DNA of 64,000 bases from positions 1-64,000 of IMG/VR virus record IMGVR_UViG_3300046476_000353. One strand, written 5' to 3'. This document shows, piece by piece, positions 3,245-9,627 of the stretch (its first letter is position 1; every line of letters begins with the position of its first letter). Source of the stretch: a virus. The position numbers and the translations under genes are program-made. The notes beneath the pieces were generated by a model, which was not told the origin of the DNA, searched no databases, and worked only from the letters and a program-made list of their open reading frames with translations.

Positions 3245-3972
3245 TGCGCCTCGGTCTCGCGGAGTTGGCTCTGGAACTCCTCCATCTGGGTGCGTTCCTC
3301 GGGCGTGAGCTGGCCGAGGTAGGCGGCGGCGGCTTCTTTGCGGGCGGTGATCTGGTCGGTGTCTTCGCGGGGCAGGTTGTGGGCGTCGCGTGCTGCGCGG
3401 CGGCGTGCGGCGTGGGCGACGGTGCGGGGGTGGCCGTTGTTGCGGCAGTGGCGTCCGAGGGGCGCCTGGCAGGCGGGGCAGGCGACGGTGAGGGGGCCGA
3501 CGCGTACCGGTCGGCGGGTGCTGGTGGTGTCGTCGCCGGGTACGTCGTGTCCGACGGCGCCGAGTTCGCGGATGAGCCGCGGGTCGGGGGTGCCGGGGCC
3601 GAGGGCGCGGAGTCCGGTGTCGGGTCCGATACGGCCGTCGGCGAGGGCAGCGGTGCGGGCGCGGAGCCGGTTGAGGTATTGCTGCGGGGTTTCGTTGGGG
3701 TCGCCGTCGTAGCGGAGGTTGGCTACGCGTTCGCGGCGGGCGCGCTTGGCGATGTCGATGAGGTCAACGGCCGTGACCCGGAAGCGGTCCTGCGGCTGAC
3801 GGGCCGCCATCTCCTGGTAGAAGGCGGTGAGTGCGGTCTCGGCGTCGGTGCGGGTGAGGCCGGCGGCGGAGAGGTCGGCTTGCCAGGCGAGGATGTCGGC
3901 GCGTCCGACGGTGCGTTGGTCGCGGGCGGCGGCGAGGCCGAGGAGTGTTGAGGCGTCTTCGAAGGTGATCAC
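3241..3972 (-). CDS. replication-region protein with C-terminal zinc finger
   Basis: 243 residues, ATG at 3972 overlapping the stop of the MAWF replication gene (ATGA). Residues 1-85 are helical and resemble small replisome-loader accessory proteins. A zinc finger follows near residues 160-185 (CPACQAPLGRHC, then HPRTVAHAARR), and the C-terminal part is helical and charged. Position directly downstream of the replication protein suggests a part in replication, such as helicase loading or DNA binding. No Walker motif is present, so it is not a DnaC-type ATPase. Exact family not identified. Confidence 0.75.
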   Translation of the reverse strand: MITFEDASTLLGLAAARDQRTVGRADILAWQADLSAAGLTRTDAETALTAFYQEMAARQPQDRFRVTAVDLIDIAKRARRERVANLRYDGDPNETPQQYLNRLRARTAALADGRIGPDTGLRALGPGTPDPRLIRELGAVGHDVPGDDTTSTRRPVRVGPLTVACPACQAPLGRHCRNNGHPRTVAHAARRRAARDAHNLPREDTDQITARKEAAAAYLGQLTPEERTQMEEFQSQLRETEAQ

Positions 3973-4931
3973 TGGGCCTCCTTGGCGGTTTGGGCGGCGT
4001 CGTATTCGGCTTGCATCTGGCGGCCGAGGTCGAGGGCGGCTTGGACGCGGGCGTCAGTGGTGGAGGGGCGGGGCTGGGCGAAGGGCACGACGTTGGTGCT
4101 GGGGCGGTTGGCGCGCTCGGACGCGAACTTCGCGGAGCGGCGGATCCACTTCTGCCATTCGGTCGGCCAGTTGGGGCGGCGGACGTTCTGGGCGCGGAAG
4201 TGGTCGACGAATTGGGCGGTCTCGTAGTCGAGGTCGAGGCTGGGGCCGAAGGTTCTGAGAGCCCATCCGCGCATCGGGTCGGTGAGCTCGAAGCCGGCTG
4301 TCTCGATCGGGGAGGGCGCGTAAGCGTCAAGATCAACCGGCGTACTACCGGTACTTCCCCCACCTACATCAGCCACGTCGTAGTTATGGGAGGGGAGGGG
4401 AGGGGAGGGGACAACCGTTGCACCCTCATGGGTGTCACGCCGTGACATGTCGTCCTGACCTGCGGCGGAGTCCCAAAACAGGGGGTCATTTCCGTCCCGA
4501 TTCGGCTCCGAATCGGATCCGTTTCCGCTCCGATTCGAGTCCGATTCCGCGCCGATTCCCGCGCGGTTCCGGTTCGAGCGGGCCGTTTCCCTGCCGCGGT
4601 TCTGCCTCTTCCGGGCGGCTTCACGGGCTGCCTCGATCTGCGCGCGGGACTTGTTGTAGTCGAGGTAGTCGTGGATGACGAAGTCCCCGTCGGCCGGCTG
4701 CTGGCACCGCGGGCAGGCGTGACCGGCGCCGTGAAGCATGCCGACGGCGATGAGCTTGCGGACGTTGGGTTCGGTGCCGTAGCTGCGGACGATGTCGCCG
4801 TCGAGGTGGCCCTCGGTGAGGTGTCGGGTCGCGTGCACGCCGAGGCGTACGAAGAGACCGACGGCGGCGTTACCCGCCTTGCGCACCTTGGGGTGCGTGT
4901 CGAACCCGTCATCGAGGGCGAACCAGGCCAT
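3969..4931 (-). CDS. phage replication protein, MAWF-type helix-turn-helix initiator
   Basis: 320 residues, ATG at 4931. The N-terminus MAWFALDDGFDTHPKVRKAG is the hallmark of a large group of actinophage replication proteins related to replisome organisers: a winged-helix domain of about 110 residues with a CPRC element near residue 74. A low-complexity linker (about 120-195, rich in Arg, Asn and Ser) leads to a C-terminal domain (about 215-300, WPTEWQKWIRRSA) resembling helicase-loader interaction domains. It probably binds the phage origin and recruits host helicase. The repetitive linker-coding segment near 4480-4600, with tandem GATTC-like repeats, could contain origin iterons. Confidence 0.8.
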   Translation of the reverse strand: MAWFALDDGFDTHPKVRKAGNAAVGLFVRLGVHATRHLTEGHLDGDIVRSYGTEPNVRKLIAVGMLHGAGHACPRCQQPADGDFVIHDYLDYNKSRAQIEAAREAARKRQNRGRETARSNRNRAGIGAESDSNRSGNGSDSEPNRDGNDPLFWDSAAGQDDMSRRDTHEGATVVPSPPLPSHNYDVADVGGGSTGSTPVDLDAYAPSPIETAGFELTDPMRGWALRTFGPSLDLDYETAQFVDHFRAQNVRRPNWPTEWQKWIRRSAKFASERANRPSTNVVPFAQPRPSTTDARVQAALDLGRQMQAEYDAAQTAKEAQ

Positions 4932-5003: not shown

Positions 5004-6452
5004 CTACTTGGTGAGCGGGTACTGGTCGAGCCACTGCATGCCGGGCGCGGTCCGCAGGTTGGGTTTCAGGTGGACGCGGCATCCGGCGTCGAGGGCCTGG
5101 ACGACGATGCGGGCGACCCACTCGAAGGGCGGCGCGAACGCGGGCACGACGCCGTTGGGCTGGCGGGTCTCGGTCTGTGCGCCGATGACAACCCAGTCGA
5201 AGACGGACAGGTCGGTGAACTCCAGCGGCTCCTTGAGCGGCTCCAGAGACAGCCACTTCACGGCCACGCCGTCGATCTTCCGGAACGCGTCCTCGGCGAT
5301 CCGTACGCGCTTCTGCTCGTCCACGCTGGTGCCGACCCAGGCGCCGGGCGGCATCTCCAGGCCGACGTAGCGGGCCGGGAACTTGGTGAGGGTGATGTAT
5401 TGCCACTGGGGGTTGGCGCACATGGAGGCGTGGACCTTGTGGATCCACTCGTCGGGGACCCAGCGGCCGTAGAGGTCGGCCATGGAGCAGACGAACACGC
5501 GCTGGTACGCCGGGTCGTCGCGGCGGGCGGCCGGGATAGTGGTGTTCGCGGGGGCGTCGAGTCGCTCGTGGTGGAAGAGCGGGGTGAAGCCGACCGGGTA
5601 GGCGCTGCTGTATCGCTCGCTGGTGGCGATCTCGCGGGCGTAGCAGTAGGTGCAGCCGTGGAGGCATCCGGTGACGGGGTTCCAGGACCAGCTGGCCCAG
5701 GAGATGCCGGCGCCCTTGGTCTCGTTGAAGGTGGCCTTGGCCTGCGGCTCGGGGTACTGGACTTCGTCACCGGTGTGGGTGCGGAGGGTGAGGAAGGTGC
5801 GGGTGGACTTGGGCGCGGGTTCGGGCTTGGGCATGGCGGCGATGCGCTGCTTACGCTGCCGGTCTGCGGCGTCGAGGGCGATCTCTCCGGCGCGGACCTT
5901 GGCGGCGAGGTCGGGGGCGTCGCGTACGACGGCCTTCGCCTGCTGGACTGCACGGCCGGACGCGCCAACCGTCTTTGCGGCGCGTTCCCTGGACCGTCGA
6001 TCTTCCCGAGCCATCGGCTCGACCCACTCATTTTGCGCGGGCAGATCTGCCCGCATTCCCTCGCTTGCCGGGGTGGCCTTCGGACGCTCCTCAGGCGGTC
6101 GTCCCTTCGGCTGGGCAGCGGAGTAGTACCGCTCGTACTCCAACGCCATCAAGGCTCTCTGCCCCGGGTTGAGCTGACGGCGAGCCATGTTCTTCGACAC
6201 GATCAGGTCGAGGATCTTCGGCTCCGTGTAGTGCGCGCCGAGCCGCTCGTACACCGGGTCGGAGCCCGCGGCCTCACACGCCCGATACCGGTTGCGGCCG
6301 TCGATCAAGACCGTGCCGTCGTGGTTCAGGACGATCGGCTCACGGAGGCCGTTCTTCTTCACGTCCGCCACGAGCTGTGCGAAGTCGTCGCCATCGATCA
6401 GCGGGAACGCATCCGCGAACGCGTGGACTTCGAACTCCCCGAGATGTGCCAT
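5004..6452 (-). CDS. ParB-like nuclease domain fused to DUF5131 (phage Gp37/Gp68, CX3CX2C motif)
   Basis: 482 residues from an ATG at 6452 that overlaps the HNH stop; a longer frame upstream reads poorly and lacks a ribosome site. Residues 1-110 are a ParB/sulfiredoxin-like domain, with the DGRNRYRACEAAG signature near 51-63 and the HTH-like MARRQLNPGQRALMALEYER at about 89-108. A charged linker follows. The C-terminal half (about 245-482) is the DUF5131 (Gp37/Gp68) family: SWNPVTGCLHGCTYCYAR carries Cys 263, 267 and 270 in the CX3CX2C spacing of radical-SAM Fe-S sites. DUF5131 genes are known to neighbour three-Cys-motif partner (TcmP) genes, and a TcmP-like gene lies two genes upstream. Enzymatic role unknown; nucleic-acid repair or modification is inferred. 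Confidence 0.88.
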   Translation of the reverse strand: MAHLGEFEVHAFADAFPLIDGDDFAQLVADVKKNGLREPIVLNHDGTVLIDGRNRYRACEAAGSDPVYERLGAHYTEPKILDLIVSKNMARRQLNPGQRALMALEYERYYSAAQPKGRPPEERPKATPASEGMRADLPAQNEWVEPMAREDRRSRERAAKTVGASGRAVQQAKAVVRDAPDLAAKVRAGEIALDAADRQRKQRIAAMPKPEPAPKSTRTFLTLRTHTGDEVQYPEPQAKATFNETKGAGISWASWSWNPVTGCLHGCTYCYAREIATSERYSSAYPVGFTPLFHHERLDAPANTTIPAARRDDPAYQRVFVCSMADLYGRWVPDEWIHKVHASMCANPQWQYITLTKFPARYVGLEMPPGAWVGTSVDEQKRVRIAEDAFRKIDGVAVKWLSLEPLKEPLEFTDLSVFDWVVIGAQTETRQPNGVVPAFAPPFEWVARIVVQALDAGCRVHLKPNLRTAPGMQWLDQYPLTK

Positions 6453-6715
6453 CAGTTGGCCTTTCCGTGGATCTCGCAGTGGCAGCGGTGGCACACGGCG
6501 ATCAGGTTGGTCGGGATGTCGAAGGCGCCCCAGGGCGGATAGCGCAGGTGGTGGGGCTCCGTCGGCGGCCGGGCCTTGCACCGCTCGCACCGGCCGCCAG
6601 CCCGCTCGAACACCAAGCGGCGGACCGCGAGGAACCGCGGGTGTCGCAGGTACTCGGCGTACGAGCGGTACGGCTTGTCGACGCTGGGCTCCGGCGGGAC
6701 GTAGTGGCGAGTCAC
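6452..6715 (-). CDS. small HNH endonuclease
   Basis: 87 residues from a GTG at 6715. CERCKARPPTEPHHLRY (about 43-59) and CHRCHCEIHG near the C-terminus are the Cys4 and HNH signatures of a compact phage nuclease. It is sandwiched between the TcmP-like and ParB/DUF5131 genes with overlaps on both sides, so it is part of that set and does not look like a free-standing insertion. Phage HNH proteins often act in packaging or DNA cutting; its true job here is unknown. Confidence 0.85.
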   Translation of the reverse strand: MTRHYVPPEPSVDKPYRSYAEYLRHPRFLAVRRLVFERAGGRCERCKARPPTEPHHLRYPPWGAFDIPTNLIAVCHRCHCEIHGKAN

Positions 6716-7698
6716 GCCACGTCGTCCAGGCCGAAGAGCGTCAGGTCACCGCCGTCGTCCGGCAGGTCTCCGGACTTCGGTGCGACCGGGCGCGGGATCA
6801 TCGCGAGCCGCTGTTCGCTGTCCGCGGCCATCCACTCGTACTCCCTGCCGTGGATTTGCTTCAGCTCCGACTTCTGCAGGAACAGGCGCAGCAGGAGGTC
6901 GTCGAAGGCCCCTGGCTCGCGCCGCCACCAGGAGATGCTCACGGAGCGGTTGCAGTTCTTGGCGCTCTTCCGGGCGGCCTGGTCGGTCTTGGCGCGCCAC
7001 TTGTCGGAGGTGGCTACGAGGTACGCCCACTGGGCTTCGTCGCGGTCCAGGGCGGCGAGGGACAGGTCGCGGTAGTCGGGCATGGACTCTTGCTGCTCGC
7101 GCACCGTGGCGAACCAGTTGATGCGCTCGTTGATGGTCAGTCGCTTGAGGCCGGCCGGGTTGCAGCCCATGGTCGACAGGCAGCGGGACAGCCAGGTGCG
7201 GTTGGCGATCTCGGCGGCGAAGGTGGGCCGCATCGCCCAGTCGATGATCGCGTTCGGGTCGTTGACGACGAAGACAGCGGTGTCGCCGTTGACGTCGCTT
7301 ACGTCGGCTTCGGCGCCGCTGAGGTTGTGGGCGGTCACTGCCGATCCGTTGTGGGGGTGCGTCCAGACGTCGGGGCCGGACGCGCCGTAGCCGAGGGTCG
7401 GGAGGTAGGTCCCCAGGTTCTCGACGAGGCGGTCGTACGTCGCTGCCTGGATCTCGTGGAGTCGGACCTCCACGGGGATCAGGCACTGCGATGCGTGGTA
7501 GGCGAGGATGCCGGGCGAGCACGACTTGTGCCACATCTCGCCGGGGATGATGGCGGCGTCTCCGGCGGTGAGGTCGTACCAGGTGCCGTGTTGGGCGCCG
7601 AGGTGGGCGATGGCTCCGGCTTCCTGTCCGGCGATGCTCGACAGGTACTCGTGCTTGATGGGGGTGCGCCAGCTGCGGCCGACGTTGGGCTTTGCCAT
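6712..7698 (-). CDS. TcmP-like (three-Cys-motif partner) methyltransferase-fold protein, tentative
   Basis: 328 residues from an ATG at 7698; it is the first gene of this leftward operon. The N-terminal half reads like a SAM-methyltransferase fold: WYDLTAGDAAIIPGE (about 40-54) in place of the usual D-x-F-A-G-P-G loop, then SPGILAYHA, then EVRLHEIQAATYDRLVENL as the acidic strand 2 and helix. VFVVNDPNAIIDWAM fits the strand-4 region. This is the architecture of TcmP proteins, whose genes neighbour DUF5131 genes. The C-terminal third is unassigned. The family match is by eye and by context only. Confidence 0.5.
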   Translation of the reverse strand: MAKPNVGRSWRTPIKHEYLSSIAGQEAGAIAHLGAQHGTWYDLTAGDAAIIPGEMWHKSCSPGILAYHASQCLIPVEVRLHEIQAATYDRLVENLGTYLPTLGYGASGPDVWTHPHNGSAVTAHNLSGAEADVSDVNGDTAVFVVNDPNAIIDWAMRPTFAAEIANRTWLSRCLSTMGCNPAGLKRLTINERINWFATVREQQESMPDYRDLSLAALDRDEAQWAYLVATSDKWRAKTDQAARKSAKNCNRSVSISWWRREPGAFDDLLLRLFLQKSELKQIHGREYEWMAADSEQRLAMIPRPVAPKSGDLPDDGGDLTLFGLDDVA

Positions 7699-7699
7699 T

Positions 7700-7884
7700 G
7701 AAGTCCCGTTCGTGTGGGTGCTGGTGAGGATGAGTGCGCGTGACGGCGCGGTCGTGCATCCGCCGTTATCGGCGGGCTTCCCACGCCTCAATAATGCCAC
7801 ATCAATGTGGCCACATGAGAGTCGCTCGATTGGAAAGATGGAGCGGGCTTCCGTGTGGCCACCTCGATGTGCGAACATGTCGAC
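7700..7884. promoter_or_regulatory. divergent promoter region with palindromic operators
   Basis: This gap separates the leftward operon (first gene ending its 5' side at 7698) from a small rightward HTH gene. It holds a 16-bp palindrome GCCACATCAATGTGGC at 7796-7811, a short GTGGCCAC palindrome at 7855-7862, and CATGTCGACATG at 7876-7887, which overlaps the presumed ATG. The shared CACAT/CATGT half-sites suggest binding sites for the encoded HTH protein, which would then control both directions. Confidence 0.6.
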
Positions 7885-8112
7885 ATGCCCGCCACCGAGG
7901 AGACCGTCGCCGCGCTGCGCAAGGCCGTGCGCGCCAAGAAGACGGCCGAGGACCGCGCCACCGCGGCGCGCAACGCGCTCGCCGTCGCCATGACCGACGC
8001 CATCCATGCCGGTGTGAAGCAAGGCGAGGTCGTCGCCATCACCGGGCTGACGCGCGAGCACGTTCGCCGGCTGGTCCGCGAGGTCGAGGAGCAACGCGCC
8101 TCCCAGTCCTGA
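7885..8112 (+). CDS. small helix-turn-helix regulator
   Basis: 75 residues from ATG 7885 (a GTG at 7855 in the same frame would add 10 residues and has a GGAG site 9-12 bases upstream, so the start is not settled). It is a basic N-terminal helix followed by a clear helix-turn-helix near the C-terminus (QGEVVAITGLTREHVRRLVR). It is the only rightward gene between 1 and 17 kb and faces the leftward operon across a palindrome-rich gap. It probably autoregulates and controls that operon. A terminator follows at 8136. Confidence 0.75.
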   Translation: MPATEETVAALRKAVRAKKTAEDRATAARNALAVAMTDAIHAGVKQGEVVAITGLTREHVRRLVREVEEQRASQS

Positions 8113-8752: not shown

Positions 8753-8944
8753 TCAGGTGGTCTTGGCCGGGCACTGGTCCCGGTGCTGGCCGATCGGATC
8801 CGAGCGCAGGTAGTCGGTGACGAGGGCGCGGCCCGTGACCCGGCGGTGGAACCCGCAGCGCGTGCAGAGGAGATCGGCGACAGGTGTCTGACCGCGTTCC
8901 ATCCGCCGCACCGCGAGACCACCGAGCCACGGGCCGCCGCTCAC
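8753..8944 (-). CDS. 63-residue zinc-ribbon-like protein
   Basis: It starts at the GTG at 8944, overlapping the WhiB stop (GTGA). It has CTRCGFHRRVTG and a C-terminal HRDQCPA, a likely C2-HC zinc site (residues near 26-60). The longer open frame upstream is a shadow of the WhiB gene. Probably binds nucleic acid or is structural; unassigned. Confidence 0.65.
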   Translation of the reverse strand: MSGGPWLGGLAVRRMERGQTPVADLLCTRCGFHRRVTGRALVTDYLRSDPIGQHRDQCPAKTT

Positions 8945-9627
8945 GCCGCGACCTTCGACGTGCCGGTCCGCCTCAGCCGGTTGTCCGCATCCGTGTTCGC
9001 CTGACGACACGGACCACACGGCTCCTCGCCGCGCTTCAGATGCCGCTGGTAGCCAGGCCGCGAGCCGCACAGATCCTGAGCGTCCCGCTCCTGCTGGTCC
9101 ATCAAATGGGCTGGCAGCACGCACCCGTCCACCGGGCATGTCCGGCGGACGATCCCGACCGGCGGCCGTTTCCGGTCCACGCGGAACGCGATCTGCGTCG
9201 GCGTGTAGTAGCGCCCCTGGAACGAGACGGGCGTGGGCCCCGTCCAGCCGGCGTGCCCGTCGGGGAGAGGCCGGGAGTGCTGGTTCCACAGGGACAGGAA
9301 GGTGCGCTTCGGCTTCTTCTTCGGCGCGGGCTCAGCCTCGACTTGCTTTGCCTGCTCGGCCCGTTGCCCGGCGTCCACCTGGCGGGCAAGGTTGCGGAGT
9401 TCGCTGGGCCGGAGCCCGCCCCGGATGCCGTAGTCGAGGTCGCGGGTACGGAGTGCGTCGAGGACGCATTCGGTCTGGACCGGGCACGGCTTGCAGATCT
9501 GCTTGGCGTGGGCGATGGCGTGTTCGTTGTTGTCGGGGAACATTTCGTCGGGGTGGATGCCAGGCTCCCGGCAGGCTGCATGCTTGGCCCACTGGCCTGC
9601 AGGTTCGAGGACGGGGTAGTGGCTCAT
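8941..9627 (-). CDS. WhiB-family Fe-S regulator with C-terminal extension
   Basis: 228 residues. The N-terminal 80 residues are a complete WhiB domain: four Cys at 19, 45, 48 and 54 (AACREPG and ICKPCPVQTEC) that would hold a 4Fe-4S cluster, then the G-I/V-RGG turn (YGIRGGL near 66-72). Typical WhiB proteins are about 80-130 residues. Here a linker (about 90-105) leads to a degenerate HNH-like region (about 110-185, GRYYTPTQIAFRV and CPVDGCVLPAHLMD) and a last Cys-rich piece (CGSRPGYQRHLKRGEEPCGPC). Phage WhiB proteins are known from mycobacteriophage TM4, where they affect division and superinfection. It probably reprogrammes host sigma-factor-dependent transcription. Confidence 0.9.
   Translation of the reverse strand: MSHYPVLEPAGQWAKHAACREPGIHPDEMFPDNNEHAIAHAKQICKPCPVQTECVLDALRTRDLDYGIRGGLRPSELRNLARQVDAGQRAEQAKQVEAEPAPKKKPKRTFLSLWNQHSRPLPDGHAGWTGPTPVSFQGRYYTPTQIAFRVDRKRPPVGIVRRTCPVDGCVLPAHLMDQQERDAQDLCGSRPGYQRHLKRGEEPCGPCRQANTDADNRLRRTGTSKVAA

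Follow-up and report, generated by a model that had tools for sequence, protein, structure and literature searches.

A cassette of three overlapping genes on the minus strand of a viral DNA (positions 5004–7698) was found to encode a 328-aa partner protein, an 87-aa HNH protein and a 482-aa chain combining ParB, HTH and DUF5131 parts. The evidence supports a three-part nucleic-acid system in which a radical-SAM-type cluster would be delivered by a ParB fold and accompanied by a TcmP-like partner. The DNA analyzed, here called the window, is a stretch of 64,000 nucleotides; the IMG/VR virus record to which it belongs has 66,974 bases. The reading tentatively preferred for the cassette, from its sequence and from structure models, is a DNA-targeted base-modification module. 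First, the ParB and HTH part would load the 482-aa chain onto DNA. Second, a 4Fe-4S cluster in the DUF5131 domain, together with S-adenosylmethionine, would generate a radical acting on a DNA base, as in spore photoproduct lyase (SPL). Third, the RlmJ-like partner would transfer a methyl group to a nucleic-acid base or help to position the base. Finally, the HNH protein may cut DNA; in the simplest case, its target would be recognized by the absence or presence of the mark. The phage might benefit because its own DNA would be protected, or told apart from host or rival DNA. DNA base modification coupled to DNA discrimination best accounts for two predicted SAM-using enzymes, a DNA clamp with HTH and a nuclease that are exchanged around a constant core and, in bacteria, are found next to restriction systems. 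DUF5131-TcmP pairs are widespread, named by motif only and listed as defence candidates without a mechanism. With DUF5131 placed near SPL, TcmP near RlmJ, and ParB clamps and HNH proteins in the same units, this unexplained pairing becomes testable. If the cassette modifies DNA, its bases would be altered by radical-SAM chemistry that is controlled by a ParB-type part.

The three genes lie where the preliminary description, which assigned them to one operon, had placed them. The partner gene (6712–7698, minus strand; ATG at 7698, stop at 6712), delineated by its ORF, its model and its conservation, overlaps the HNH gene by 4 bp. The latter (6452–6715, minus strand; GTG start at 6715, stop at 6452), recognized by profile matches and sequence, shares 1 bp, in the sequence TGATG, with the gene of the ParB-HTH-DUF5131 chain (5004–6452, minus strand; ATG at 6452, stop at 5004). 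These gene overlaps suggest translational coupling of the three genes. Beyond what had been described before, the trio is recurrent, the DUF5131 fold is nearest to SPL, and the partner is nearest to RlmJ.

The DUF5131 domain occupies residues 226–482 of the 482-aa chain (5007–5777, minus strand). PF07505 (DUF5131) matched the chain with 116.2 bits at a cut-off of 28.9 (E 2.2e-33), phrog_2045 matched it with an E value of 2e-44, and the next NCBIfam matches after PF07505 were radical-SAM families (rSAM_mob_pairA, 5e-17; Rv2578c, 2e-6; PA0069, 5e-6). SPL itself touches the Rv2578c and PA0069 models (0.002–0.004). In the AlphaFold2 model of the chain (mean pLDDT 90.8), residues 226–464 were nearest to SPL by VIA-align (Z 14.4, rmsd 3.5 over 218 residues), followed by RlmN and viperin (Z about 11). 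The CX3CX2C spacing had been read as that of radical-SAM clusters, and the radical-SAM fold of the predicted model, with SPL, RlmN and viperin as its best PDB matches, agrees with this. A PDB sequence search with the partner, TcmP and DUF5131 profiles gave no credible match, so that the folds were assigned from structure predictions.

The cluster motif C263-x3-C267-x2-C270, in which Y269 and Y271 flank C270, lies at 5643–5666 (minus strand). Conservation of the three cysteines, on which the earlier proposal depended, was found in 43/43 aligned relatives; Y271 was likewise invariant, and Y269 was present in 39 of the 43. A 4Fe-4S cluster would probably be bound via Cys263, Cys267 and Cys270. 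The motif reads VTGCLHGCTYCY in the window and ATGCMGHCHYCY in SPL, with TGCxxxCxYCY common to both. By CxxxCxYCY, Y271 and Y269 are the counterparts of SPL Y98 and Y96 (Gt numbering). Y98, the tyrosine after the third cysteine, is a proposed radical relay, and Y96 contacts AdoMet (PMC3742179). Candidate equivalents of the catalytic cysteine of SPL, Cys141 (Bs) or Cys140 (Gt), are C322 (conserved in 40/43) and S323 (43/43), with a profile alignment that spans the cluster motif only. In hhalign, too, DUF5131 and SPL were aligned over the cluster motif only, the equivalence being known by motif and not by superposition. The SplB query sequence could be aligned from end to end with the SPL chain of Geobacillus in the PDB.

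That the nearest relative of the radical-SAM domain is a DNA enzyme sharing CxxxCxYCY argues for base modification of DNA. It counts against this reading that SPL repairs and does not modify, and that the equivalence to SPL is not established residue by residue beyond CxxxCxYCY. DNA repair, in which an SPL-like lyase or base-reverting enzyme would be loaded by the ParB clamp and assisted by the partner and HNH proteins, is an interpretation for which SPL as the nearest solved fold and the common motif speak. It is nevertheless improbable, since the SPL families TIGR04070 and TIGR03886 were absent from all NCBIfam matches of the chain at E 0.1, and since a lesion reverser would not be expected to have a methyltransferase partner of its own or to exchange its DNA readers. 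The restriction genes beside bacterial pairs (see below) also argue against repair. Unlike SplB, with which it shares the radical-SAM fold and the cluster motif including both flanking tyrosines, the window chain matches no SPL profile, adds ParB and HTH parts and has a methyltransferase-like partner.

The N-terminal half of the chain carries a ParB_N-like domain (residues 4–93; 6174–6443, minus strand) with the motifs DGRNRYRAC and SKNMARRQLN, and a ParB-type HTH region (residues about 146–206; 5835–6017, minus strand), seen as helices in the model. Residues 4–93 of the predicted model aligned with Myxococcus ParB bound to a CTP analogue (VIA Z 11.1, rmsd 2.3 over 85 residues). The ParB_N profile was sub-threshold on the window protein alone; a profile built from 56 homologous N-termini matched Spo0J with an E value of 5e-23 over ParB_N and HTH, the alignment spanning profile positions 60–196. 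Together with the PF07505 match, this bears out the claim of ParB-like and DUF5131 domains on a single chain. The arrangement of ParB_N and HTH is shared with ParB/Spo0J, Noc and KorB, and so are the GxxR and N-x-x-R motifs. In contrast to these proteins, the window ParB part is fused to a radical-SAM domain and has K87 in place of the CTP-hydrolysis Glu of ENxxR (mostly K/A/S in relatives, aligned on N88). Thus, CTP hydrolysis is doubtful.

The window ParB part was also matched by phrog_498, a phage DNA methyltransferase family. ParB-DNA-methyltransferase fusions of this type likewise join a ParB-like module and a nucleic-acid-modifying enzyme on one chain, whereas the enzyme in the window is radical-SAM-like and not an N6/N4 methyltransferase. 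DUF5131 chains without a ParB N-terminus frequently carry a different HTH-type domain or DUF3102 in its place. Both the occurrence of the ParB-like part in phrog_498 and the Spo0J-like or otherwise frequently HTH-type or DUF3102 N-termini favour base modification of DNA.

The partner had been described as resembling TcmP, and this was obtained by way of intermediates and the predicted structure, not by a direct profile match. Direct searches of Pfam, NCBIfam and PHROG profiles with the window partner gave no match, including none to TcmP (TIGR04474, E 0.1), a result that the preliminary description had taken to speak against its proposal. The intermediates nonetheless link the partner to TIGR04474. 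An iterated profile over the ORFs of 114 loci merged the window partner with TcmP-like genes adjoining other DUF5131 genes, and among the partner relatives TIGR04474 matched that of locus L095 above its curated cut-off (55.4 bits versus 53). The E values for further relatives were 1e-10 (L097), 2e-10 (L072), 9.5e-9 (L012), 0.0017 (L056) and 0.07 (L013). No relatives of the partner were found by tblastn in annotated phages. For the long partner ORF, Cupin_2 gave a weak, sub-threshold match, which was discarded.

The partner model (pLDDT 89.2, pTM 0.86) had its best PDB match in the RlmJ family (Foldseek E 3e-8). VIA Z scores were 14.3–16.8 for RlmJ-family entries, i.e., RlmJ and a Legionella homologue, and 12.7 for the next family. 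For E. coli RlmJ, TcmP was the sole NCBIfam match (E 0.0012). The RlmJ query sequence was identical to the PDB chain. The partner contains the motifs K15-H16, D42-LTAGD, S61-P62 and N-D147-P-N; K15, D42, G46 and D147 were invariant in 45 aligned relatives, and S61-P62 nearly so. By motif order, not by superposition, K15-H16, S61 and D147 match K18-H19, S100 and D164 of RlmJ; hhalign of the two proteins covered motif I only. The essential residues of RlmJ include K18 and D164, and contacts to AdoMet are made by S100, H19 and D164 (PMC3814359). Sequence and model together support a divergent TcmP-like protein with a predicted RlmJ-like methyltransferase fold. This fold with K15, S61 and D147 is a further argument for base modification.

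RlmJ (23S rRNA m6A2030 methyltransferase, DUF519) and the partner have in common the fold, the N-terminal K-H, motif I D-x-x-A-G, the S-P cofactor-contact motif and the motif IV Asp. They differ in that identity is about 10%, the partner lacks the long insertion that RlmJ has between motif I and S-P, and the partner is set in a phage DNA cassette. In addition, the DPPY motif IV of RlmJ was not found in the partner, which has NDPN instead. Since motif IV is DPN and not the m6A-type DPPY, a methyl acceptor other than adenine N6 is possible, and the deviating motif counts against the base-modification reading. The same holds for the fact that RlmJ acts on RNA, so that an RNA substrate is possible. 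Modification of tRNA or rRNA, from host or phage, by the RlmJ-like partner and the radical-SAM enzyme, with ParB only regulating expression, would fit RlmJ as an rRNA methyltransferase (PMC3814359) and RlmN, a radical-SAM RNA methyltransferase, among the next-best folds. The DNA-binding-type N-termini on most TcmP-linked chains and the association of bacterial pairs with DNA restriction systems make it quite improbable.

The call of a small HNH nuclease gene in the operon holds. PHROG HNH families (E 1.4e-10) and an IscB-type HNH profile (E 9e-7) matched the 87-aa protein, with PF01844 sub-threshold, and the sequence shows a CxxC/CxxC zinc-ribbon pattern and His-His, Asn and His residues. HNH genes often stand alone in phages, and such common passengers count against a part for HNH in base modification.

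Recurrence was analyzed in loci picked by similarity, so that the following proportions are associations within this set and not population frequencies: a TcmP or partner gene lay near 62 of 92 distinct DUF5131 chains, and an HNH gene of this type near 37 of them. The HNH gene adjoined 33/61 same-strand TcmP-linked chains and 3/31 others (Fisher p 3e-5); many DUF5131 chains were without a detectable HNH. Gene order was permuted in one locus (L013; HNH-partner-DUF5131), and TcmP and HNH were fused as one ORF in three others (L012, L043 and L076). The enrichment of HNH beside TcmP-linked chains and the fusions support base modification of DNA by the cassette. ParB-type N-termini, scored by a motif rule that misfiles a few chains, went with TcmP in 42/46 versus 20/46 cases (p 1e-6). 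TIGR04474 detected no TcmP at any position in the records of L098–L113 and of three mycobacteriophages, in which DUF5131 stands alone; this model also misses the window-type partner, so that a TcmP gene may have escaped detection there.

Core and partner distances correlated (Mantel r 0.67, p 0.0005). Most of this correlation stems from close relatives, which have core and partner in common; r was 0.29 for diverged pairs. In L012, the core differed by 17% and the partner, of another TcmP type, by 80%, while in L010 and L013 the core was nearly unchanged and the N-terminus different. This pattern would be consistent with a constant chemistry module combined with exchangeable targeting and partner modules, and conservation of the core while reader and partner are exchanged again favours base modification. 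Chance neighbourhood, with the HNH gene as a mobile passenger and the partner as an unrelated orphan, is very improbable: the general frequency of free-standing HNH genes and the many DUF5131 chains without a detectable one speak for it, but it is already disfavoured by the recurrence of the trio, even in permuted order, as well as by the 4-bp and 1-bp overlaps, the TcmP-HNH fusions and the correlated divergence of core and partner. A more specific form of DNA base modification, put forward as a speculative possibility, is a phage-encoded hypermodification or modification-restriction system without a described precedent. Here, the ParB-clamped SPL-like enzyme would install or prepare a mark, the RlmJ-like methyltransferase would complete it and the HNH protein would test it, with the radical-SAM core kept constant and reader and methyltransferase exchanged between phages.

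DUF5131 and TcmP were also surveyed in 246 genomes of the phylum of an Actinomadura genome carrying a relative. DUF5131 was present in 34 and TcmP in 35 genomes. Both occurred in 23, where 4.8 would be expected if they were independent, and they were adjacent in all 23. Thus, the pairing is established, as had been stated before. Type I or IIG restriction genes (E below 1e-20) were found in or beside at least 4 of 11 bacterial pair loci and in none of nine control regions taken from these genomes, and this location supports base modification. In the temperate Gordonia phages Fairfaxidum and BaxterFox, the two genes of the pair are convergent, with the integrase on one side and the immunity repressor on the other. 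The window shares with these DUF5131 (PF07505, phage Gp37/Gp68) and TcmP (TIGR04474) pairs, as with PDC-M41/M30, the same DUF5131 catalytic-type domain and an adjacent TcmP-like gene. The bacterial and temperate-phage genes, however, are stand-alone and often convergent, whereas in the window ParB and HTH are joined to DUF5131, the partner belongs to a divergent subtype and an HNH gene is present as well. No publication on DUF5131 or the DUF5131-TcmP pair was found in the literature searched. The pair is known but uncharacterized; new is its phage variant, in which DUF5131 is fused to ParB, the partner is divergent and RlmJ-like, and an HNH gene is included.

The main rival to base modification, with which it overlaps, is phage-borne defence or inter-phage conflict, in which DUF5131-TcmP would recognize, damage or restrict competitor DNA with HNH as the effector instead of marking the phage's own DNA; both repair and modification of RNA have a lower probability. 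Window DUF5131 matched the PADLOC models PDC-M41B and PDC-M30B (E 1.4e-31 and 2.1e-30), and a TcmP relative matched PDC-M41A (E 8e-7). These PDC candidates were derived by guilt-by-embedding, without experimental validation (PMC10855318). For S. meliloti, one putative operon is listed that contains TcmP together with the defence helicase Hna (PMC12445080), and the restriction systems adjoining bacterial pairs and the position between integrase and repressor in the Gordonia phages point in the same direction. However, PADLOC models, including those for TcmP, gave no match to the window partner, and the window cassette lies among early replication/recombination genes (replication initiator, Erf-like protein, DnaQ-like exonuclease), where protection or take-over are equally likely. 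Defence is a possible but rather unlikely explanation.

The window is GC-rich, and its gene content is actinophage-like (replication initiator, WhiB-like and Erf-like proteins). Neither a near-identical phage record nor a close relative among annotated phages was found. A scan of the genome collection with the partner yielded a single Actinomadura contig, whose match equals that of an IMG/VR record already found. Downstream of the cassette, the next genes comprise a replication-initiation-like gene and further early-region genes, and a DNA methyltransferase gene lies in the same region (1571–2509).

Upstream, a divergent small ORF (7855–8112, plus strand; 85 aa as called, likely start ATG at 7885) showed a weak HTH match. 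Between it and the cassette lies the perfect palindrome ATGTGGCCACAT (7805–7816), with a second, similar site at 7853–7864. The palindrome is possibly an operator, and the ORF may encode a regulator. In L010, a homologue of the small ORF is also divergent to the cassette, and GTGGCCAC sites occur at near-identical spacing.

The organization of the genes was compared among relatives of the cassette. The TcmP-like and HNH domains, encoded by separate overlapping genes in the cassette, were found fused in a single reading frame at three of the collected loci with DUF5131 relatives (L012, 6484-7503; L043, 3469-4461; L076, 3568-4458). In the stretch separating the cassette from an HTH-like ORF that runs divergently (window 7855-8112), two palindromic GTGGCCAC sites are located about 48 bp apart (window 7805-7864), and their spacing is near-identical in the related locus L010 (5915-6229). 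In other relatives, the gene in the divergent position is a different one, and a CCAATCTTTAAAGTAGTATGGCA-like stretch is conserved. Near the cassette, the minus strand (window 8941-9627) also encodes a WhiB-like protein of 228 aa with a long C-terminal extension.

In Gordonia phage BaxterFox (L157, NC_031226.1), DUF5131 was matched on the plus strand at 3501-4061, and gene 42, unnamed in the annotation, was identified as TcmP (E 2.5e-51). Annotated genes 40 and 41 run on the other strand from the DUF5131 match, which therefore appears to have been overlooked in the deposited annotation.

Type I restriction genes (HsdM, HsdS and HsdR matches) enclose or adjoin the bacterial DUF5131-TcmP pairs in L168 (5757-7387), where the orientation of the pair is opposite to that of the flanking restriction gene, and in L163 (6130-7677). 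GC content tends to be lower around the bacterial pairs (L163-L173) than in control regions of the same genomes (L174-L182), which is in keeping with lateral transfer. Adjoining another bacterial pair, a 1039-aa protein (L169, 9485-12604) combines DrmC-like and HerA-like PADLOC matches and differs from either DrmC or HerA alone.
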